Virus record (IMG/VR): IMGVR_UViG_3300037529_000001
Span: 1 to 59,401 of that record
Length of the DNA stretch: 59,401 nucleotides
From: a virus
Reading direction: 5' to 3' (one strand)
Of the stretch, positions 17,978 through 47,407 are shown in pieces (within the stretch, counting starts at the first letter, position 1; every line of letters starts with the position of its first letter). The notes below the pieces were generated by a model that worked only from the letters and a program-made list of their open reading frames with translations, was not told where the DNA came from and searched no databases. The position numbers and the translations under genes are program-made.

Positions 17978-20604
17978 TAGAGAACCCTCACCTGAGTCCG
18001 TGTATTGCGCCGCATGATCACATCATTGATGCCCATACCAACAGCTTGTCCTGTAGCAAATGCTTGTTCTTCTGTCGGCAATGCGCCGGTAAAGACCACC
18101 TCGACGGCACCTTTATTGAACACTGCTGCACCTGGATTGTTCGTTCCTGGCACTGATGTAATCATATTATCAGATGCAAGTGCCGGAATGCTTGAATTCA
18201 CATCAAAAGCACTGGGGATCATATTAGTGATATCACCCAATGTGTTACGCAATGAAGGAATCGAGTTTTCAATACCATTTATGAGACCACTCATAATTGC
18301 TTGACCTGCTGGCGTAAGCAACTTGAGGTCAACCTCCATTGGACCTTTCCAGTCGGTGATACTTTCTGTAAGATTAGTGAATGTGTCCTTAACCCAATTC
18401 CATGCACTAACGACACCATTCACAAGACCACGGAGAATATCACGTCCTGCATTATAAAGAAGATTACCTAGATCACCGATGGCATTAAGAATTTTATCGG
18501 GAAGTTCAACAAAGAAGTCAATGACATCATCAACAATTCCAGCAACTTTCTCAAATGCTTTCACAAGCCAGTCGACAAGAATAGCTGAGAACTCAACAAC
18601 CTTTTGAATGAGGAATGCTATGATTTGTAGCATTCTCTGTAGAACTTCAATAAGGAAATTAACAACTGGAATCATTTTGTTAAGAACATCCACAATGTTC
18701 TCAATCATCATGATAAAGATGTCAAGACCAAGATCGATCAATTGCACAATGATAGGCAATAGTGCTTCAATGATTGGCATCAATGATTCTGCCAGTGCAG
18801 AAATCAAATTCACAATCGGAGGAAGCAACTTCAAGATAACATCGATCATTGGTATGAAGGCTTGAACAACCTTCACAATGACAGGAATCAACTTGATGAC
18901 TGCGCCGCTTAGTTGTGCGCCAAGATCTTGTGCAAGTTTTGAAATAACCGGAATGATCTTATTAAGCGCATCAAACAATGGTTGCAGCGCAACAGCGAGT
19001 TGAGAAATAACTGGCGCTAGTGCATTAAACAATGCGATCACAATGGGCAGAACAATCTGCATTGGAATCATCGCAAGCTTAATGATTTCAACCAGTGGAT
19101 CAATCAATGTTATGACGACAGGCAAAAGTGCATCAATGATACTGATCAAAGCAGGAAAGAGTTGCGATGTCAGTGGAATCATCACTGTTAGAATATTTGC
19201 AATAACTTCAATCAAACCACCTGCCAGTGCAGTAATAACTGGTGCAAGTGATGTTAGAAGATCACCAAGACTATTCGCAACAAGTGTAATGACGGGCGTC
19301 AATGCAGTGAAGATCGGCATCAATCCGGTCATCAATTGCGCAATGAGAGGCGTAATGATCTGTACCAAAGTGATAATGATCTGAATGAGACCATCACTCA
19401 ATGCGGCCAAGAATGGCGTCATTGCACTGACAAGTTGATTGATCGTGGGCACAAGCGATAGGAAGATTGCTTGTAGACCTTGACCCAACATTGCGATGAT
19501 AGGTGCAAGAACAGCAGCCAGCATCTGGAATATTGGTGCAAGAGCAGTTGCCAGTCCATTAATGATCTGAGCAAGTGAAATAAGAAGAGGACCGGCAACT
19601 TGTGCCACTGATGAAATAATTTGCATCAGTGGTGCGATTGCACTTGTAAGTGCTTGAATGGTTGGAAGTAGTGCTTGAATCAGTGGACCAATTACAGGAC
19701 CAAGATTATCAGCAAGTACTTGTGTGAATGCTAGTACTTGTGCAATGATAGGCGCAAGCAACGGTGTAAATTGCTGCACCACTGTGGACAAGCTATTGAT
19801 GATATCTGGTAGTGCCGATGCAGTATTAATGATAGGCACAAGTGATGGCACAAGTGAAGTAAAAGCATTAGCTGCTGCGTCAGCCGCCGGTACAGCTTGA
19901 TCAACAAGAGCTTGCGTGATAGGTGCAATTGCCGGTCGAATCTTAATAAGAGATCCGATAGCGATGTTTGTGAATTTACCTATAGCACCTTCAAGAATGG
20001 GCAATGTATCAAGAAACGTGAAACCAAGTGAATCCTTGATCATCTTCAAGGAATCATCCCACGTTTTAAAGATCGTAGGTGCTTCACCATTTAGTTCAGT
20101 CGCTACTCGAGCAGCATTACCAAAACCAACTGTGCCGAGTGATATAAGTGCTGCTGTTGCTGTTCCGGCACCGGCAGCAATGGCACTAAATGCACCGGCA
20201 GCACCGATACCCAAACCTGCAAGTGAATAGCCAATACCACGCCATGTTCTTCTGGTAAAGAATGGTCCACTTGTGGCTCTAGTTGCAGATTTATTTATAC
20301 TCTTAAATACTTTATCTGCTTTATCATCAAGATCTTCGAGCTCATCTTCGACTTTTTTAATGTCAACTTCAGCTCGACCGGTCATTTCTTTAAACTCACG
20401 CTTAAAGTCACGACCAACATCAGCAATAACTCTAGCGGCAGAACCGCCCATTTTCTTAAAACGATCGGTAACGGCTGTGCCCATTTTGTCGATACGCTCG
20501 ATGACACTGCTAACTGTCTCATCGACTTGTCGAACAACTGTGCGCTGGAACTTATCAGCAACAGGAACAATTTCAATTGAAATTGTGTCAACGGGCTCAG
20601 CCAC
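17977..20604 (-). CDS. Tail tape measure protein
   Basis: 875 residues. The N-terminal 130 residues are charged and helical (DRFKKMGGSAARVIADVGRD), followed by a Gly/Ala hydrophobic segment and then hundreds of residues of hydrophobic helical repeats rich in I, L, V, P and Q (for example PLIAQLMTGLMPIF, ALAPVISQLAVALQP), with a recurrent spacing near 20-25 residues. This fixes tail length and is carried in the tail lumen. Its size corresponds to a tail of about 130 nm using the usual 0.15 nm per residue. The position after the chaperone genes is canonical. Confidence 0.9.
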   Translation of the reverse strand: MAEPVDTISIEIVPVADKFQRTVVRQVDETVSSVIERIDKMGTAVTDRFKKMGGSAARVIADVGRDFKREFKEMTGRAEVDIKKVEDELEDLDDKADKVFKSINKSATRATSGPFFTRRTWRGIGYSLAGLGIGAAGAFSAIAAGAGTATAALISLGTVGFGNAARVATELNGEAPTIFKTWDDSLKMIKDSLGFTFLDTLPILEGAIGKFTNIAIGSLIKIRPAIAPITQALVDQAVPAADAAANAFTSLVPSLVPIINTASALPDIINSLSTVVQQFTPLLAPIIAQVLAFTQVLADNLGPVIGPLIQALLPTIQALTSAIAPLMQIISSVAQVAGPLLISLAQIINGLATALAPIFQMLAAVLAPIIAMLGQGLQAIFLSLVPTINQLVSAMTPFLAALSDGLIQIIITLVQIITPLIAQLMTGLMPIFTALTPVITLVANSLGDLLTSLAPVITALAGGLIEVIANILTVMIPLTSQLFPALISIIDALLPVVITLIDPLVEIIKLAMIPMQIVLPIVIALFNALAPVISQLAVALQPLFDALNKIIPVISKLAQDLGAQLSGAVIKLIPVIVKVVQAFIPMIDVILKLLPPIVNLISALAESLMPIIEALLPIIVQLIDLGLDIFIMMIENIVDVLNKMIPVVNFLIEVLQRMLQIIAFLIQKVVEFSAILVDWLVKAFEKVAGIVDDVIDFFVELPDKILNAIGDLGNLLYNAGRDILRGLVNGVVSAWNWVKDTFTNLTESITDWKGPMEVDLKLLTPAGQAIMSGLINGIENSIPSLRNTLGDITNMIPSAFDVNSSIPALASDNMITSVPGTNNPGAAVFNKGAVEVVFTGALPTEEQAFATGQAVGMGINDVIMRRNTRTQVRVL

Positions 20605-20606
20605 AA

Positions 20607-20942
20607 CTACCTCTTACGATTCTTTGTAAGAGATTGAGCTGCCAAAATACTTGAGTGACTGGCTTCTTCATCACCATGCCACCAAGAAGGCGTCCATTCT
20701 CTTTTCTCCGGCTTATCCTCCATAGACAATAGAGGACCGACCAATTGACTATTAATTTCTTTATGCTTTTCAGGATCTGATGTTTCTAGAACCCAAAAGT
20801 GCACAAGATCTATGAAACGATCGACGGTGAACTTACTGGGATCAACGTTTCTGCTTGCGCACCATCCATTGAAAATGTGCCATCTTTCTCTGTGAAATCG
20901 ATGGTAGAGCCATTTGCAGAGTCCGACGACTGCTCCAAAGGG
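20607..20942 (-). CDS. Tail assembly chaperone frameshift extension (T part)
   Basis: The frame ending at 20607 has no good start but is open upstream through the end of the preceding chaperone gene. Read in the -1 frame it gives NVDPSKFTVDRFIDLVHFWV followed by LETSDPEKH, which looks like the T domain of siphovirus G/GT chaperones. A heptamer CCCTTTG (forward CAAAGGG, 20936-20942) is in the right phase for a -1 slip from CCT TTG to CCC TTT. The exact slip site is uncertain because it lies about 125 bases before the zero-frame stop. The fusion would help load the tube protein on the tape measure. Confidence 0.6.
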   Translation of the reverse strand, partial: PFGAVVGLCKWLYHRFHRERWHIFNGWCASRNVDPSKFTVDRFIDLVHFWVLETSDPEKHKEINSQLVGPLLSMEDKPEKREWTPSWWHGDEEASHSSILAAQSLTKNRKR

Positions 20943-40059: not shown

Positions 40060-40099
40060 GCCCGTGATCGGAATCGAACCGATCAAAAACCATTCGGGC
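40060..40099 (-). ncRNA. tRNA-like minihelix 1 between genes
   Basis: Minus strand: GCCCG, then AATGGTTTTT, then T-arm GATCGG-TTCGATT-CCGATC, then A and CGGGC. The 5-bp acceptor-like stem and T-arm stack as in tRNA and the TGGT strand resembles the D-loop GG that docks on the T-loop; D-stem and anticodon arm are absent. It lies between the stop of the 71-residue gene and the Shine-Dalgarno of the next. Confidence 0.75.
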
Positions 40100-40107
40100 T
40101 GACGTTC

Positions 40108-40323
40108 TTAGCGGGCGATGTTGATTCGGTGAAGCTGAATGGTCGTGTTGTGCTTGTAGGCGATGATCGTCGCCTTCAGGTCGCCGTACGCCCATTCGGT
40201 AATACCGAAGTCGATCATCTTGCCGTTGATCTCGCGTGTCCACGCGTAAGAAATGTCAGAGAGCGTGGTCGACGTCCCACGGAGGAAAGCAACGGAAACA
40301 GCAGAGCGGGGGCCAATGTTCAT
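40108..40323 (-). CDS. Hypothetical protein (71 aa)
   Basis: ATG 40323 is preceded by AAAGGA at proper distance. The product (RSAVSVAFLRGTSTTLSDISYAWTREINGKMIDFGITEW) is mixed alpha/beta and basic. It lies between two tRNA-like minihelices in the 40.9-39.4 kb operon. No family recognised. Confidence 0.55.
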   Translation of the reverse strand: MNIGPRSAVSVAFLRGTSTTLSDISYAWTREINGKMIDFGITEWAYGDLKATIIAYKHNTTIQLHRINIAR

Positions 40324-40357
40324 GATCATTCCTTTGTTCGTGTTTGGTATTTGGAGC

Positions 40358-40404
40358 GTCTAGAAGAGGAATCGAACCTCAACAAATGACCACCAGGTCT
40401 AGAC
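40358..40404 (-). ncRNA. tRNA-like minihelix 2 between genes
   Basis: Minus strand: GTCTAGA ... TCTAGAC form a perfect 7-bp acceptor stem, the normal tRNA length; the T-arm GAGG-TTCGATT-CCTC follows CCTGGTGGTCATTTGT, again with TGGT. No D-stem or anticodon arm. It lies after a hairpin (40410-40430) and before the next gene's AAAGGA. Confidence 0.75.
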
Positions 40405-40409
40405 TATGA

Positions 40410-40430
40410 AGGGCGGTTATTCGCCGCCCT
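40410..40430 (-). other. Hairpin after the 168-residue gene
   Basis: AGGGCGG pairs with CCGCCCT over seven bases. No U-tract follows, so it may pause polymerase or protect the mRNA 3' end next to minihelix 2. Confidence 0.5.
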
Positions 40431-40437
40431 ATGGATG

Positions 40438-40944
40438 CTACGAGGCGTCGATCAAAATGGCAGATACGAGCTGCAAGTGCAATTGGACTCGCTCGTTGCG
40501 CCGATCCATCATGGCACCGTATCGCTTGGAGTAATCGATGCGCCACGCGATACGCTCATCGCGGGACATGTGCTGCCTGAAGTGATGAATGTAGTTGATC
40601 AGCTCACGATCCATCATCTCCATGTGCGAATCGTGCTCCGGGTACGTCTCGTCGATCGTGGGAACGATGTCGCTCGTGTCGACGTCAGCCTGCACGTCCT
40701 CGATCTCTTCGATGACGTCGTCAATCGTGTGAACGCGAGACGACTCAACGACGATGCCAGTCGTGGTCTGGATCACAACATTGAGGAACGCGAGGTCAGT
40801 GCCTTCGATGTTCTTGATCGTGTAGTCAACGATCTGGCCCACGTGACGGAGAAGATCGCGGGTCTTGGCGGAACCCGTCACCACCATGACGTAGTCGCCC
40901 TTGCGCGTGTCGTTGACGTCGACCTTGGTGAATTGGGTGGTCAT
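40438..40944 (-). CDS. Hypothetical protein (168 aa), first gene of P3 operon
   Basis: ATG 40944 follows AGGAGCC, and promoter P3 lies 40 bases upstream. The N-terminal TKVDVNDTRKGDYVMVVTGSAKTRDLL and VGQIVDYTIKNIEG segment looks like a small beta-barrel; the rest is acidic and helical (DVIEEIEDVQADVDTSD) with a basic C-terminal helix (SRDERIAWRIDYSKRYGAMM). Codon use is GC-richer than average here. No known family. Confidence 0.6.
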   Translation of the reverse strand: MTTQFTKVDVNDTRKGDYVMVVTGSAKTRDLLRHVGQIVDYTIKNIEGTDLAFLNVVIQTTTGIVVESSRVHTIDDVIEEIEDVQADVDTSDIVPTIDETYPEHDSHMEMMDRELINYIHHFRQHMSRDERIAWRIDYSKRYGAMMDRRNERVQLHLQLVSAILIDAS

Positions 40945-40980
40945 CGTTGGCTCCTTGTTCGTTGGTCGTTGGCGGGCTAG

Positions 40981-41030
40981 GTCAATCGTATCCTCATAGA
41001 AGAGACAATGTGCGATCTTCAAGAAATAAA
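40981..41030 (-). promoter_or_regulatory. Promoter unit P3
   Basis: Minus strand: CTTGAAGATCGCACAT, 17 bases, TACGAT (40990-40985), then TGAC. Same architecture as the P1 and P2 copies, here without the A6 block upstream. Confidence 0.65.
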
Positions 41031-41052
41031 TTTTGTAACGGTTGTGCAACAA

Positions 41053-41685
41053 AGTTTGATCTTAGGATGCCAGCACGAACCCGCACGTGAAAATATTGCA
41101 CATGCAAGTGTATGAGTTGATCTTGCACAACCAATTGATGCGCGCGGTGCGCGTGCGTGCGCGCGCGATATACCACATCAAGAAGATCAAGTCAAACACG
41201 TCTAAGATCAAAAATCACACCTCATCTACCAGGCACAACACGCTCAAACCCTCTTCAAGAAGATCAAAAACCCATGTGCTTAGTCGTCTACGGGATGTGT
41301 GAAAATAGCCCACGAGTAAGTGTTGTGCCTGGTCAGAGCGATGAGTTTTGTGATCAAAACGAGCTAGTCGATCTTTAAAGCATGCCAGTACGGATGATAA
41401 CATTTATGTAACAAAAGTTGATCTTGTACTAGGTCAAGATCTTTTTCATTGCATTATATTGTGTCACTTGAAGATCATTTTCATCATTCTTTACACTCAA
41501 GATCAATTCATTATGATAAATGAGCAAGATCATTGAAGAATGATGTTGATCTTCATATGTTATGTGAACATCATTGATCTTGATAATGAGATGACATACT
41601 CTCACTCATTTGCCCACGAGGTGGCGCACCCACATGCGTATGCATCATATATACATATGTACACACATAAGTGATGTGAATGATA
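41053..41685. other. Gene-poor gap with GATCTTG copies and a long inverted repeat
   Basis: No convincing gene is found. It holds CCAGGCACAACAC (41229-41241) and its complement GTGTTGTGCCTGG (41320-41332); the first copy and its neighbours (CTCATCTACCAGGCACAA, AAGAAGATCAA) align with the distal half of promoter unit P5. Several GATCTTG or CAAGATC sites and a GCGCGCG stretch (41140-41165) are present. Confidence 0.6.
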
Positions 41686-41988
41686 TCATTCGGGCATTGT
41701 GTTCATTTCAAGAACAAAATCCTTAAAGTGAACAAATGGCTTCATATAATCAACACTCTCGCAACATAGAACATTGAAAACATTCTCTATAAATGTCAAC
41801 ACAAATGCAATGTCAATGCTTGCAAAGAGAACATGATTATTGAAAACATTTGATTGTTTAATGTGCATGCTACACACATATGATGTTTTTCCATTATCAT
41901 TCTGTAGTGTTTCATAAATATGCAATGCGCATTTTTCAGCATAATTAAAATACAATGATGTATTATGTTTTGCATTTTCGAATTGCAT
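41686..41988 (-). CDS. Hypothetical protein (100 aa)
   Basis: ATG 41988 follows AAAGGACAACA. The product starts MQFENAKHNTSLYFNYAEKC and has a helical, hydrophobic C-terminal half (IAFVLTFIENVFNVLCCESVDYMKPF). Its order of short beta part and helix is loosely like the products at 42291-42602 and 43548-43841, perhaps distant paralogs. Function unknown. Confidence 0.5.
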   Translation of the reverse strand: MQFENAKHNTSLYFNYAEKCALHIYETLQNDNGKTSYVCSMHIKQSNVFNNHVLFASIDIAFVLTFIENVFNVLCCESVDYMKPFVHFKDFVLEMNTMPE

Positions 41989-42090
41989 TGTTGTCCTTTG
42001 CGTATACACACACTTCAAAAAATCACACATGAGTTTTTTGAAAAAATGTGATTCTTCAACGTGTTTTCAGAAAATATCGTATCAACACAT

Positions 42091-42124
42091 AAAAGTAGCA
42101 CCACCTAAAGGCGGCGCTACTTTT
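42091..42124. terminator. Bidirectional terminator
   Basis: AAAAGTAGC pairs with GCTACTTTT as the outer stem, with CC-GG pairs inside and a TAAA loop. It lies just past the stop of the 53-residue membrane protein gene on the minus strand. Confidence 0.8.
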
Positions 42125-42136
42125 AAGAAAGTGCGA

Positions 42137-42298
42137 TTAATTGAACAGTTTGATCAGTCCAAATGTCAGAAGACTGAACATTAGGACAGCACATCCGACC
42201 ATTCCGACAGCGGTAACACCACAACCTTTGTATCGTTCAGGATCTGGCGCGGGAGGAGGTGCTTTATGGACAACTGTTTCATCAGTCCATTCATGCAA
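42137..42298 (-). CDS. Small membrane protein (53 aa), TTG start
   Basis: The frame with TTG 42298 overlaps the preceding TGA and follows AGGAG. EWTDETVVHKAPPPAPDPERYK is a Pro-rich polar head, followed by a hydrophobic segment (CGVTAVGMVGCAVLMFSLL) and LIKLFN. A lone span with a cytoplasmic Pro-rich head resembles the 59-residue protein at 274-453 (KKGCGFT plus span). No ATG is available, so the start is uncertain. Confidence 0.5.
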   Translation of the reverse strand: MHEWTDETVVHKAPPPAPDPERYKGCGVTAVGMVGCAVLMFSLLTFGLIKLFN

Positions 42299-42602
42299 TG
42301 TTCTCAAACTCCTCATACCATTTAGGATTCATCGTCCACGCACCATCGGTATTGCGCGAAGCAATGATAATATCAGTGTGACGATCACGCATTTCAACAT
42401 TATCGACGATGACAAAGTCAAGACTGAGATTGACTTCGAGAACGTTCATGCACTCAACCATGGTCTTGAGCATCTCAATGCTGTGATCTTTAGGGCTGAC
42501 AAATGCAGTGTCACGGTCAGCATTTTCACAGGAATAAAAACCACTACGCATACTGTTGATGAAATGGTCATTATCAGTAAGTTCAACATCGTTACTGCTC
42601 AT
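42291..42602 (-). CDS. Hypothetical protein (103 aa)
   Basis: ATG 42602 lies behind GGAG inside the end of the preceding gene. The product is acidic, with SNDVELTDNDHFINSMRSGFY, then HSIEMLKTMVECMNVLEVNLSLDFVIVDNVEMRDR. No family recognised; possible distant relation to other small products of this region. Confidence 0.55.
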   Translation of the reverse strand: MSSNDVELTDNDHFINSMRSGFYSCENADRDTAFVSPKDHSIEMLKTMVECMNVLEVNLSLDFVIVDNVEMRDRHTDIIIASRNTDGAWTMNPKWYEEFENIA

Positions 42603-42885
42603 AACCATACTCCACTTCGTGTCGCTTGCACATTGGGAAATTATATTCATCCATAACCCAATGCACACCTTCTTGCATTGTGTTCTTGTCGATGGGTCGC
42701 TGGCACATGATCTGAGAGCAGAATGCTTTCTGATCAGGAACGCCACTCCAAAGATAACGCTCGTGGAGGGTAGTTCCATCATCTAGAACGTACCACGTGT
42801 GACCTTTATTGGTTCGAATGCCAAGAACAGTCACCTCTTCATTCAATCCAGTGGTACGGATCTTTTGTCCTACAGCAAATTTTGC
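42592..42885 (-). CDS. Hypothetical protein (97 aa), GTG start
   Basis: GTG 42885 follows GGAGG; the longer frame upstream passes through minihelix 3 and is rejected. The N-terminal VAKFAVGQKIRTTGLNEEVTVLGIRTNKGHTWYVLDDGTTLHERYL is an SH3-like small barrel, and a C-terminal CSQIMCQRP ... FPMCKRHE Cys pattern suggests metal binding. Function unknown. Confidence 0.55.
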   Translation of the reverse strand, partial: AKFAVGQKIRTTGLNEEVTVLGIRTNKGHTWYVLDDGTTLHERYLWSGVPDQKAFCSQIMCQRPIDKNTMQEGVHWVMDEYNFPMCKRHEVEYGYEQ

Positions 42886-42915
42886 CACATTGCCTCCATT
42901 TTTGAATGGATTTGT

Positions 42916-42957
42916 GCCCGGTAAAGGAATCGAACCTTTACCAAGTACCATACGGGC
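42916..42957 (-). ncRNA. tRNA-like minihelix 3 between genes
   Basis: Minus strand: GCCCG, TATGGTACTTG, then T-arm GTAAAGG-TTCGATT-CCTTTAC and CGGGC. The stop TAG of the preceding gene shares its last base with the first base of the element, and the next gene's GGAGG lies 25 bases downstream. No D-stem or anticodon arm. Confidence 0.75.
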
Positions 42958-43136
42958 TAGTAGTTCTCGTTCTTCAGATCACGTCTGAAGCGTCCAACTT
43001 CACGCGCTCGCTGCTGGCTGCGAACCTGCTTACGCCTACGTCCGTGTCGTCCGATGAATTCGTGCGGCTGGCAGCACCATTTCGGACAAGCCGACTGATA
43101 GTGCGCGTCACCCATCATACGAGCTTTGGTGCTCAT
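42957..43136 (-). CDS. Small basic zinc-binding-like protein (59 aa)
   Basis: ATG 43136 follows GGAAGGTG. SACPKWCCQPHEF gives C, CC and H residues and the C-terminal half is very basic (GRHGRRRKQVRSQQRAREVGRFRRD), suggesting nucleic-acid binding. The stop directly abuts minihelix 3. Confidence 0.55.
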   Translation of the reverse strand: MSTKARMMGDAHYQSACPKWCCQPHEFIGRHGRRRKQVRSQQRAREVGRFRRDLKNENY

Positions 43137-43213
43137 AATCATCACCTTCCGCAATTAATTGAATGACACCGGGAAGAAGATCGATGATTTTGTAATGAGA
43201 TTACGATCGATAC

Positions 43214-43480
43214 CTAATATTTCACAACTTTCCACATCCCACCGTTTACAGAGGTGATAGAACCTTTGTAAGTGTGGATGTGCGCAATGCGATTACCGTG
43301 CTCGTCGATCTCAATTTCCAGTTCAGGCGTGGACTGGTTGTAACCGGATCGGTCGAGAAACCGAATCTTGTTCAACACCTCAGCGAGAACGCTCATCCAC
43401 GCGCACACTGTGGCATTGTTGTGCGTGATTTCGCATTCACCCGGATTGACCGTTTCCGGCATCTTAGGCAACTCAGACAT
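43214..43480 (-). CDS. Hypothetical protein (88 aa)
   Basis: ATG 43480 is preceded by GAGAGGAA and follows minihelix 4. The acidic product (ELPKMPETVNPGECEITHNN ... MSVLAEVLNKIRFLDRSGY ... HIHTYKGSITSVNGGMWKVVKY) has no recognised family; a second half with beta strands is evident. Confidence 0.55.
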   Translation of the reverse strand: MSELPKMPETVNPGECEITHNNATVCAWMSVLAEVLNKIRFLDRSGYNQSTPELEIEIDEHGNRIAHIHTYKGSITSVNGGMWKVVKY

Positions 43481-43507
43481 GGCATTTCCTCTCTGAAGTT
43501 TTATCGT

Positions 43508-43548
43508 GCGCGGGAGAGGAATCGAACCTCTCCTTACACCATGCGCGC
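43508..43548 (-). ncRNA. tRNA-like minihelix 4 between genes
   Basis: Minus strand: GCGCG, then CATGGTGTAAG-type strand with TGGT, then T-arm GGAGAGG-TTCGATT-CCTCTCC and CGCGC. The TAG stop of the upstream gene overlaps its first base, and the next gene starts 28 bases beyond. Confidence 0.75.
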
Positions 43549-45276: not shown

Positions 45277-45301
45277 TCCTCATGGTCACCCCTGACCGCG
45301 C

Positions 45302-45372
45302 TGGTGAGATAGGATTCGAACCTATATTACCCAGATCCAAAATCTGGTGTCCTACCATTAGACGACTCACCA
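45302..45372 (-). tRNA. tRNA-Gln (anticodon TTG)
   Basis: Acceptor TGGTGAG/CTCACCA; anticodon arm CCAGA-TTTTGGA-TCTGG; T-arm loop TTCGAAT. No CCA is encoded. Confidence 0.9.
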
Positions 45373-45438
45373 TCGCCGAATAGCGGTCCGCAAGTTTAGC
45401 TATTCGGCTTAACATTGTATGATATGCAAACAATGCGC

Positions 45439-45517
45439 TAGCATGAAAGGAGTTGAACCTTTAACCTCTCCTACGTGGCGATCACTGGAGTGCTCTATCC
45501 AATTGAGCTACATGCCA
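45439..45517 (-). tRNA. tRNA-like gene with enlarged anticodon loop (A1)
   Basis: Acceptor TGGCATG pairs with CATGCTA, D-stem GCTC/GAGC and T-arm AAAGG-TTCAACT-CCTTT are normal. The anticodon region is CTCC, then 15 bases (AGTGATCGCCACGTA), then GGAG; the 15 bases can form an inner GTG-CAC helix. No 7-base anticodon loop can be drawn, so amino acid identity is not assigned. Confidence 0.6.
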
Positions 45518-45561
45518 TAAGAATGAAATTGCATAATGTACCGAAAAATACAAGTTCATTC

Positions 45562-45635
<74 letters not shown>

Positions 45636-45650
45636 TATTCATTTATTTAG

Positions 45651-45743
45651 CGGTATGGTGGGAGTCGAACCCACATCAGGATCCCTCTCTTTTACCCGCC
45701 GGTAAAAGCCTCGTTCACCACTCTACCATTGAGTTACATACCT
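45651..45743 (-). tRNA. tRNA-like gene with long atypical middle arm (A2)
   Basis: Acceptor GGTATG/CATACC, D-stem ACTC/GAGT and T-arm GTGGG-TTCGACT-CCCAC are good. Between D and T arms lie 45 bases dominated by a strong 8-bp hairpin (CTTTTACC/GGTAAAAG). A forced GTGAA/TTTAC stem would give loop CGAGGCT without U33. Identity not assigned. Confidence 0.55.
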
Positions 45744-45917
45744 GGGTGCCCGATTACTAGAGACGCGACTCTCGTTCATCGTATTCCGTGCACGGACAGG
45801 ATCGTGAATCCCGTTATGCCACACTGTAGAAGACTCTGGAGAAACTTCTACGCACCGCGCATCCTTTTACAATTACTAAGGATCTTCATGATCTAAGGAG
45901 TGCCATCCGTCGATCGT
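45744..45917 (-). other. Structured spacer in the tRNA array
   Basis: 174 bases without a recognisable tRNA. It contains the hairpin GTAGAAG/CTTCTAC and a weak acceptor-like pairing GTGCACG/CGGGCAC around GAGAG-TCGCGT-CTCT, which could be a degenerate minihelix. Confidence 0.35.
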
Positions 45918-45989
45918 ACCGCATACGGGAATCGAACCCGTCTTCTCCAGAGTGAAAGTCTGGCGAGATTACCACTACTCCAATGCGGC
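45918..45989 (-). tRNA. tRNA-Glu (anticodon TTC)
   Basis: Acceptor GCCGCAT/ATGCGGT; anticodon arm CCAGA-CTTTCAC-TCTGG; T-arm ACGGG-TTCGATT-CCCGT. Confidence 0.9.
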
Positions 45990-46000
45990 TTATTTTACGT

Positions 46001-46072
46001 ACCGTATATGGGGATCGAACCCATGATCTCTGGATTGAGAATCCAGTGTGTTAACCACTACACTAATACGGC
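46001..46072 (-). tRNA. tRNA-Glu (anticodon CTC)
   Basis: Acceptor GCCGTAT/ATACGGT; anticodon arm CTGGA-TTCTCAA-TCCAG; T-arm ATGGG-TTCGATC-CCCAT. A second Glu isoacceptor next to the TTC gene. Confidence 0.9.
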
Positions 46073-46077
46073 TCTGA

Positions 46078-46149
46078 GCTGGTGATAGGACTTGAACCTA
46101 CAACCTATCGCTTACAAGGCGATTGCACTGCCAATTGTGCTACACCAGC
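46078..46149 (-). tRNA. tRNA-Thr (anticodon TGT)
   Basis: Acceptor GCTGGTG/CACCAGC; anticodon arm ATCGC-CTTGTAA-GCGAT; T-arm GTAGG-TTCAAGT-CCTAT. Confidence 0.9.
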
Positions 46150-46154
46150 ATAGC

Positions 46155-46234
46155 GGAAGTTAATAGAATCGAATTATCATCTTACGATGGTATGGCTTAG
46201 CAAGCCACTTGAGTAACCATACTCACTAACTTCC
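46155..46234 (-). tRNA. tRNA-Ser (anticodon GCT)
   Basis: Acceptor GGAAGTT/AACTTCC; anticodon arm GTGGC-TTGCTAA-GCCAT; class II variable arm CATC-GTAA-GATG. The T-stem is weak (one mismatch). Confidence 0.85.
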
Positions 46235-46304
46235 TGGTTGGGCACCGCGTCGCCGATCGGCGTTATTCCCTCTGCGCCCCCTAGGCGGGCTCGGCTTGCA
46301 TTGC
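46235..46304 (-). other. GC-rich spacer in the tRNA array
   Basis: 70 bases, GC-rich against an AT-rich background, containing the palindrome CGCCGATCGGCG and GCCCGCC-TA-GGGGGC. No tRNA is recognised. Confidence 0.35.
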
Positions 46305-46383
46305 GGAAGGTAAAGGAATCGAACCCTTATCCGTAGATAGCCTGGTTTTCAAGACCAGTTATGCACCATGCATGCTACCTTCC
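46305..46383 (-). tRNA. tRNA-Ser (anticodon TGA)
   Basis: Acceptor GGAAGGT/ACCTTCC; anticodon arm CTGGT-CTTGAAA-ACCAG; variable arm TATC-TACG-GATA; T-loop TTCGATT. Confidence 0.85.
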
Positions 46384-46393
46384 ATACTTACGT

Positions 46394-46466
46394 AGTGAGA
46401 ATGGGGTTCGAACCCATATCAACCAGATTATGAGTCTGGGGCATTGACCTGTTATGCTATCTCACC
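46394..46466 (-). tRNA. tRNA with anticodon CAT (Met, or Ile2 if modified)
   Basis: Acceptor GGTGAGA/TCTCACT; D-stem GCAT/ATGC; anticodon arm CCAGA-CTCATAA-TCTGG; T-arm ATGGG-TTCGAAC-CCCAT. Elongator Met and lysidine-type Ile cannot be separated by eye. Confidence 0.85.
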
Positions 46467-46470
46467 TCGT

Positions 46471-46541
46471 GGAATCAATCGGAGTCGAACCGATATCTAC
46501 CTGCTTGCAAACCAGGCGCTCTACCTTTAAGCTATGATCCC
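46471..46541 (-). tRNA. tRNA-Ala (anticodon TGC)
   Basis: Acceptor GGGATCA/TGATTCC; D-stem GCTT/GAGC; anticodon loop TTTGCAA between CCTGG and GCAGG (closing pair mismatched); T-arm ATCGG-TTCGACT-CCGAT. Confidence 0.8.
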
Positions 46542-46702
46542 TAGTTGGAGGGCCGGACTCGCACCGACTTAGCGCACTCACCACTTATCTAGAATATGGT
46601 GATCTATTGCTACGCAAATTGACCATGTCGCTCTCATCTAAGTTTGCATACTTTAGCACAGATGAGTGTCGCGTTGCCTCTCCCGGTGTGCTTAACCGTT
46701 TG
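46542..46702 (-). other. Unresolved structured RNA region in the tRNA array
   Basis: 160 bases holding GTCGG-TGCGAGT-CCGGC (T-arm-like, one change in the loop), CACCA-13 bases-TGGTG with CTAG in its loop, and CTCATCT/AGATGAG with an inner AAG/CTT helix. GGAG(A)GGC at its far end can pair with GCCCTCC. It could be one long tRNA-like RNA or two degenerate ones. Confidence 0.35.
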
Positions 46703-46788
46703 TGCGTTGTCGGGAATCGAACCCGATGCTTCTGTCACTGTATTGCTCAATCTGGAGCACAGTTCTCCGCATTAACCATAACAACGCG
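46703..46788 (-). tRNA. tRNA-like gene with reduced D region and enlarged anticodon arm (A3)
   Basis: Acceptor GCGTTG/CAACGC and T-arm TCGGG-TTCGATT-CCCGA are good. The D region is reduced to ATGGTTAAT. The middle arm is ACTGT, 17 bases with inner GCTC-CAGATT-GAGC plus AAT, then ACAGT. No standard anticodon loop. Confidence 0.55.
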
Positions 46789-46837
46789 CCTTTTCGCGTT
46801 TCCCCTTGTCCCGTGGGTGGCTGGCCCTCAGTAACGT

Positions 46838-46910
46838 ACTTCCGAAAGGACTCGAACCTTCACTAACCAGAACCTAAATCTGGCGCCTCTGCCAATTGGG
46901 CTACGGAAGC
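46838..46910 (-). tRNA. tRNA-Leu (anticodon TAG), short variable loop
   Basis: Acceptor GCTTCCG/CGGAAGT; D-stem GCCC/GAGG-type; anticodon arm CCAGA-TTTAGGT-TCTGG; variable loop only five bases, unlike bacterial class II Leu tRNAs. Confidence 0.8.
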
Positions 46911-46912
46911 TA

Positions 46913-46936
46913 GTGAATAAGGTTGCCCTTATTCAC
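46913..46936. other. Hairpin between tRNA genes
   Basis: GTGAATAAGG pairs with CCTTATTCAC over a TTGC loop (10 bp). No U-tract; probably a processing or stability element. Confidence 0.5.
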
Positions 46937-46990
46937 GTTTATCCACCAGTCAAACCGCATGTATAACTGATTGTTCGTGCCACCGAACGT

Positions 46991-47062
46991 ACTCTCAGTA
47001 GGATTCGAACCTACACTTGATGGATTTTGAATCCATTGCCTCTGCCATTGGGCTATGAGAGC
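46991..47062 (-). tRNA. tRNA-Leu (anticodon CAA), short variable loop
   Basis: Acceptor GCTCTCA/TGAGAGT; anticodon arm ATGGA-TTCAAAA-TCCAT; variable loop CAAGT; T-arm GTAGG-TTCGAAT-CCTAC. Same class I body as the TAG tRNA. Confidence 0.85.
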
Positions 47063-47156
47063 TAGCATATTACATTACACAACAGCTGCAACTATTTAAC
47101 GTGCAATGCAATATACCATTTACGCACAGATAACCACTGTTCCTCAGATGGAGCGT

Positions 47157-47230
47157 GGGCCTAGAAGGACTCGAACCTCCAACATACACGGTAGAAACGT
47201 GCTGCTCTATCCAACTTGAGCTATAGACCC
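47157..47230 (-). tRNA. tRNA-Arg (anticodon TCT)
   Basis: Acceptor GGGTCTA/TAGGCCC; D-stem GCTC/GAGC; anticodon arm GCACG-TTTCTAC-CGTGT; T-arm GGAGG-TTCGAGT-CCTTC. Confidence 0.9.
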
Positions 47231-47261
47231 TAATATGAAATTCTCAAACAACAATACTACG

Positions 47262-47339
47262 CGGGATAACAGGAATCGAACCTGTATGTTATGACATCTG
47301 GGGAAGTACCATAACGTTTTGCCATTAAACTATATCCCT
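47262..47339 (-). tRNA. tRNA-like gene with enlarged anticodon loop (A4)
   Basis: Acceptor GGGATA/TATCCC, D-stem GTTT/AAAC and T-arm ACAGG-TTCGATT-CCTGT are good. The anticodon stem TTATG/CATAA encloses 16 bases (GTACTTCCCCAGATGT) instead of seven. TCC or CCC (Gly) may be present, but no canonical loop forms. Confidence 0.6.
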
Positions 47340-47407
47340 CACGACTAACGTTCTGTGGGCGTTACCCGTGACCCGCGAACAAACCTTGGTTTGTCGTTGT
47401 TGATTCA

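Follow-up and report, generated by a model that had tools for sequence, protein, structure and literature searches.

Transfer RNA (tRNA)-shaped units placed between genes are familiar from mitochondria, where they often abut or overlap incomplete stop codons and are excised by ribonuclease (RNase) P and RNase Z, an arrangement called tRNA punctuation. Other tRNA mimics that recruit tRNA enzymes are MALAT1 mascRNA, which is used by RNase P to define the 3′ end of the RNA that carries it, and the tRNA-like structures of plant viruses, while RNase III sites between T7 genes are endonuclease sites that separate phage cistrons. Thus, tRNA-based punctuation, RNase P action on messenger RNAs (mRNAs) and tRNA mimicry are already known kinds. 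Here we describe four tRNA-like elements (E1–E4) of about 40 nt, which lie on the minus strand at positions 40060–43548 of the IMG/VR virus record IMGVR_UViG_3300037529_000001, between small genes without family matches. The record is a complete virus record of 59.4 kb, analyzed over its full 59,401 nt (the window). As far as we found, a dedicated anticodon-less mini-tRNA recurring at the gene junctions of double-stranded DNA (dsDNA) phages is undescribed in the open-access literature searched.

The elements resemble mitochondrial punctuation in being tRNA-shaped units between genes, and we propose the same excision mechanism for them. Unlike the working tRNAs of mitochondria, however, they are dedicated, anticodon-less mimics of ~40 nt in dsDNA phages of bacteria, and their cleavage is predicted. 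MALAT1 mascRNA and the plant-virus structures are eukaryotic, single copy and terminal, whereas the phage elements are multiple, operon-internal and smaller; the T7 sites involve a different enzyme and a different RNA shape. Among the known cases in which RNase P acts on mRNA or C4 RNA, none to our knowledge involves a dedicated, conserved element that resembles tRNA and is repeated between genes. Those cases, bacterial polycistronic mRNAs and the C4 RNA of phages P1 and P7, are, like the elements, non-tRNA transcripts and include phage RNA (references in PMC11143913), but they are individual instances rather than a recurring element. The minimal model substrates of RNase P, hairpins made of acceptor, T-stem and T-loop (PMC11143913), share the 12-bp helix and T-loop with the elements; the substrates are laboratory constructs, whereas the phage elements occur naturally, have in addition a GG strand like that of a D-loop, and are located in mRNAs.

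Re-reading of the minus strand confirmed the four minihelices of the original prediction made for this stretch, each with an acceptor, a TGGT strand and a T-arm with the loop TTCGATT (Table 1). The acceptor and T-stem together make 12 bp (5 + 7) in E1, E3, and E4; in E2 the helix has 12 steps (7 + 5), consisting of 11 pairs and one T·T mismatch. In all four, the T-loop is closed by a G-C pair, the linker carries the GG-bearing TGGT, and the 3′ flank is a purine followed by C, as it is in most tRNAs of the same phage. The calculated folds of E4 and E1 have energies of −17.9 kcal/mol (z −2.9) and −16.4 kcal/mol, respectively. The best single-strand fold of E3 lengthens the T-arm and leaves the acceptor unclosed, so that its acceptor rests on comparison and not on folding energy. 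The prediction that all four lack both D-stem and anticodon arm is correct for the anticodon arm; E2, in contrast, can form a D-arm, as can a subclass of relatives, and its best fold has a 4-bp D-like arm (GACC-UGGU-GGUC). The elements therefore have the 12-bp acceptor/T-stem stack with T-loop of the tRNA family RF00005, but not its cloverleaf with an anticodon arm. Neither ARAGORN nor Rfam gives a hit to E1–E4, and the elements reach no described Rfam family at its threshold. Intrinsic terminators, in which a GC hairpin is followed by a U tract, were considered and rejected for E1–E4, since there is no U tract and no terminator-like site was found at them.

Similar elements recur in many other phages. 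When IMG/VR was scanned for ATGGT followed by GAGGTTCGATTCCTC at 2–14 nt, at least 119 contigs matched, and ~100 hits fold into the element shape with unrelated stems; two further T-stem versions returned at least 120 contigs and 104 contigs. With TGATG as a control motif in place of ATGGT, 36 loci were obtained, as compared to at least 119 for ATGGT; about 8 of the 36 contain elements after all (TGATGG), and many of the remainder are full tRNAs. A search of 404 loci (3.85 Mb) identified 391 elements outside tRNA genes, 301 of them distinct, as compared to 9 in shuffles; the loci were chosen by motif and include some near-duplicate contigs, so that 391 is not a prevalence estimate. An equivalent helix scan of shuffled sequence produced 2.3 hits per 1.16 Mb, or ~0.1 per window, and on the basis of the shuffle and swapped-flank controls chance helices were rejected. 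A set of about 287 high-confidence distinct elements was assembled from IMG/VR, cultured phages and Mu-like prophages of flavobacteria. A role of the ATG of ATGGT as a start codon was also rejected, as the linkers TTGGA, ACGGT, CTGGT, and AAGGT occur too. Seed hits with GGTGGATGGT, such as those in L034, L035, L036, L044, L083, L120 and similar contigs, form no element and were excluded; the contigs with these GGTGGATGGT..GAGGTTCGATTCCTCC matches also bear ordinary tRNA genes.

The original prediction staked itself on covariation in relatives, and this is strong. Because the scanner selects for pairing, we also examined seeds picked by ATGGT and a 4-bp T-arm only, in which acceptor pairing played no part in the choice. 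All 12 of 12 pairs form in 146 of 278 such seeds, as compared to 10 when the 5′ flanks are swapped among seeds; in a rigid register, all six acceptor pairs are present in 25/76 against 0.7 expected from the control and in 29/64 against 1.4. An alignment of 25 elements that were chosen for being paired has pairing in 98% of its cells; at 10 of the 12 pairs both partners have changed, and shuffling lowers the covariation score from 1.012 to 0.229. A covariance model built from 25 aligned elements of other phages, without the window sequence, finds E4 (E value 1.1e-10), E3 (1.9e-8), and E1 (9.7e-5) as full elements, and E2 by its T-arm only (0.004).

Features of the tRNA elbow are retained as well. 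In tRNA, GG docks on the T-loop, and the suggestion that the linker supplies the GG of a minimal elbow is supported by its conservation in elements that were not selected for it: GG stands at linker position 0–3 in 71 of the 110 distinct elements outside the seed motif, as compared to 25 expected from shuffled linkers. Position 74, at which RCCA would pair with RNase P RNA, is conserved as C or T (C 64%, T 27%, G 1% among perfect elements), and the full CCA is rare. A second class of elements, found in cyanophage-like contigs and in the cultured phage S-EIVl, has the T-loop TGCRA and a D-arm loop ending in AG or CG, while D-arm forms with TTC T-loops in similar contigs have GG. From these sequences, which come from few lineages, the D-loop/T-loop contact looks to have co-changed between the two classes. 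Contigs with TGCRANN T-loops (L222, L230, L258, L275, L412) have up to three copies each, mixed with the TTC class.

The placement of the elements relative to genes is equally distinctive. Of the 287 high-confidence elements, 54% start within −10 to +20 nt of the stop of a same-strand open reading frame (ORF); the share is 6% for control positions and 19% for the tRNA genes of these loci. The gene calls in the IMG/VR contigs are mechanical. The next start mostly follows 20–50 nt downstream, and in contigs with 3–6 elements (e.g., L285, L329, L404) the elements alternate with co-directional ORFs. The four in the window likewise lie between one gene's stop and the next start, as had been proposed, with stops at −1 to +33 nt (E3 and E4 overlap the TAG by one base, at 42957 and 43548; E1 is at +8 nt and E2 at +33 nt) and starts 27–38 nt downstream. 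Same-strand placement and proximity to stops put the elements between consecutive genes of a presumed single transcript, as in tRNA punctuation. The separators themselves have no anticodon arm and so are not functional tRNAs, with the exception of a tRNA-Gly site in phage NATL1A-7.

That site belongs to a set of cultured phages in which the element can be followed. A single perfect element is present in Mycobacterium phage SWU2, where it lies between gp10 and gp11 (model E value 3.2e-11), and just upstream of the major capsid gene the T7-like cyanophages P-SSP7, P-SSP2, P-GSP1, and S-TIP37 carry an element as well. Its D-stem is ATCGG/CCGAT in P-SSP7 and P-SSP2 and ATCAA/TTGAT in P-GSP1, a compensatory change, and in S-TIP37 it is the mini form. 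At the corresponding site NATL1A-7 has an annotated complete tRNA-Gly, followed by the same conserved downstream block. That a whole tRNA takes the place of the element in one phage suggests that what the two have in common is being recognized by the enzymes that process tRNA ends. In complete bacterial genomes, elements are rare, with about 10 clear minihelices in a scan for one T-stem sequence; two of those checked are within Mu-like prophages, and others adjoin phage-type genes. The Mu-like prophages of Chryseobacterium sp. Leaf404 and Epilithonimonas xixisoli have two elements each, one of which is located 33 nt upstream of the transposase gene, with different T-stems in these upstream elements.

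Taken together, we consider it likely that the elements are signals for processing by RNase P, probably with RNase Z, that punctuate phage mRNA. Bacterial RNase P cleaves hairpins of acceptor and T-arm at the normal site, its specificity domain binds the elbow with the T-loop to 5′-end distance being a conserved 12 bp, and replacement of the T-loop lowers its efficiency and shifts the site (PMC11143913). The elements have both the 12-bp helix between T-loop and 5′ end and the elbow determinants. From these retained features and the whole-tRNA replacement, we infer that RNase P cuts at the 5′ base of the acceptor and that the 3′ side is trimmed by an RNase Z-like activity. Read as minimal tRNA mimics inside polycistronic phage mRNA, the elements retain the 12-bp stack, the T-loop and GG, the anticodon arm having gone and the D-arm usually being reduced to the GG strand. 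Host RNase P would recognize the stack and elbow and cut at, or just past, the upstream stop (at E4, the predicted cut is 5′ of base 43548), and RNase Z or 3′ exonucleases may trim after the discriminator base (at E4, RNase Z is predicted to cut after 43507), since a similar flank is found in the tRNAs that the phage itself encodes without CCA. Such processing would release a ~40-nt RNA and split the operon into separate mRNAs with new ends, each piece having its own stability and translation, by means of mimics costing about half a tRNA gene. On balance, we also lean toward the broader proposal that phages of actinobacteria, cyanobacteria and bacteroidetes use an undescribed cross-phylum RNA punctuation code based on minimal tRNA elbows, through which host RNase P would cut operons into single-gene messages, sometimes within the stop codon as in mitochondria.

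Several observations weigh against punctuation by RNase P. The upstream stop codon is overlapped by 57 of the 287 elements (~20%); these have 51 different stem sequences, and the overlap is therefore recurrent. A cut at the acceptor 5′ base would consequently remove part or all of the stop, and simple excision is no explanation for this overlap. In 32 elements the stop is divided at the predicted cut as TA/A, TA/G, or T/AG (the −1 and −2 cases), where A-tailing could rebuild UAA as in mitochondria. In the other 25 the stop is inside the acceptor (−6 to −8) and A-tailing could not rebuild it; in these, the cut may come after the last ribosome has passed, or translation may prevent it. Most elements also lack the complete RCCA at the 3′ end that makes RNase P bind more strongly, and E2 is structurally different and weak in the covariance model search. 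Finally, several cyanopodophages have a plain hairpin, and no tRNA mimic, at the equivalent site upstream of the capsid gene, a replacement that could favor a more generic structural role.

The close relation to stops raises the question of whether the fold acts on translation while remaining uncut, by controlling the release of ribosomes, termination-reinitiation or how accessible the next start is. Stops that are tightly adjoined or overlapped and a next start mostly 20–50 nt away are consistent with this, as is P-SSP7, where the stop codon of a short upstream peptide ORF is read from the sequence as lying inside the element. Nevertheless, the elements keep no fixed register to the stop, their distance from it ranging between −8 and +15, and there is no evident reason why a translational role should require the 12-bp tRNA length, T-loop, GG and C74-like flank or allow replacement by a whole tRNA, so we regard such a role as unlikely. 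Somewhat less probable still is that the excised minihelices are the product and act in trans, for instance by serving as decoys for RNase P, RNase Z, EF-Tu or defence nucleases that target tRNA. The tRNA-like flank would permit excision and one phage may have up to 5–6 diverse copies, but the strong placement at operon-internal stops, which is tighter than that of tRNA genes in the same loci, points to a role in cis, and the elements have neither an anticodon nor a constant acceptor identity.

The plain hairpin of some cyanopodophages would also be expected if the elements were stable folds that protect mRNA ends by blocking exonucleases, either uncut or cut by another enzyme. Any GC hairpin would serve this purpose, however, leaving the conservation of T-loop, GG and 12-bp length unexplained, and we give this proposal little credence. 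If the elements were leftovers of decayed tRNA genes or of integration (att) sites, without a present function, their clear resemblance to tRNA would be accounted for, and the window does contain a tRNA array. Yet the helices are perfect and covary, number in the hundreds and occur several to a genome, which contradicts such decay, and we consider this origin highly improbable. In P-SSP7 and S-TIP37, attP is located away from the element (PMC8776855).

If punctuation by RNase P is correct, tRNA punctuation, usually seen as an organelle peculiarity, would also occur in bacterial viruses in a stripped-down form, and phages would be using an essential host ribozyme for mRNA processing. The elements would be natural minimal RNase P substrates and could help to annotate phage operons, and from the hundreds of covarying copies it could be worked out which tRNA elbow contacts matter. 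The proposal is directly testable, as elements are present in the tractable M. smegmatis phage SWU2 and in S-TIP37, for which there is a genetic system.

The window encodes a major head protein family and a portal/terminase of actinophage type, and the best matches of its proteins are actinophages at ~30–39% identity. No relatives of the phage were found in IMG/VR via its portal-like protein or primase, and no near-DNA match to the window is present in the phage records searched. The genes around the elements are listed in Table 1 together with the tRNA array; none of the 14 array tRNAs encodes CCA, and most have the same N73-C74 flank as the elements.

Table 1. Elements, neighboring genes and other features in the window and in related loci
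Feature	Position	Strand	Sequence or remark
E1	40099-40060	minus	GCCCG AATGGTTTT TGATCGG TTCGATT CCGATCA CGGGC, then A73 C74
E2	40404-40358	minus	GTCTAGA CCTGGTGGTCATTTGTT GAGG TTCGATT CCTC T TCTAGAC, then G73 C74
E3	42957-42916	minus	GCCCG TATGGTACTTG GTAAAGG TTCGATT CCTTTAC CGGGC, then A73 C74
E4	43548-43508	minus	GCGCG CATGGTGTAA GGAGAGG TTCGATT CCTCTCC CGCGC, then A73 C74
ORF, 97 aa	43548..43841	minus	TAG stop shares base 43548 with E4; no family match
ORF, 88 aa	43214..43480	minus	start 27 nt past E4; no family match
ORF, 59 aa from internal ATG	42957..43136	minus	TAG stop shares base 42957 with E3
ORF, 98 aa	42592..42888	minus	GTG start after GGAGG, 27 nt past E3
ORF, 168 aa	40438..40944	minus	end 33 nt ahead of E2
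ORF, 73 aa	40108..40329	minus	start 28 nt past E2; stop 8 nt ahead of E1
ORF, 135 aa	39614..40021	minus	start 38 nt past E1
Array of 14 ordinary tRNA genes	45300..47340	minus	upstream of element-bearing genes
tRNA-like unit	46704-46787	minus	7-bp acceptor, ATGGTT near acceptor, perfect T-arm, atypical middle
tRNA-like unit, 91 nt	45652-45742	minus	in tRNA array; acceptor, D-arm, T-arm, long irregular middle
AT-rich region	41050-42130		between two element pairs
Mu-like prophage elements, L428	9510-9549, 14699-14738		
Mu-like prophage elements, L429	15511-15550, 9940-9979		
Glutamine-II riboswitch match and short downstream peptide ORF, L198 (P-SSP7)	20522-20650		precede the element
Conserved block, L198 (P-SSP7)	20682-20742		past the element

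The two tRNA-like units in Table 1 were called by neither ARAGORN nor Rfam; the unit at 46704 looks intermediate between a tRNA and the mini-elements. The AT-rich region between the element pairs has few convincing genes and many AAGATC/GATCTT motifs. Upstream of the capsid genes of the cyanophages, a conserved block TTGGC...GGATACC...GCCGTCTAGACGGTGGGATAGACCACAA follows the element in P-SSP7, with equivalents in L413–L423; no Rfam family was reported for this block, which may act as a phage promoter or form another RNA structure. The capsid-upstream hairpin in L415, L417, L418, L419, L420, L422, and L423 has a near-constant internal sequence, CACCTCAGAGTCGGA.

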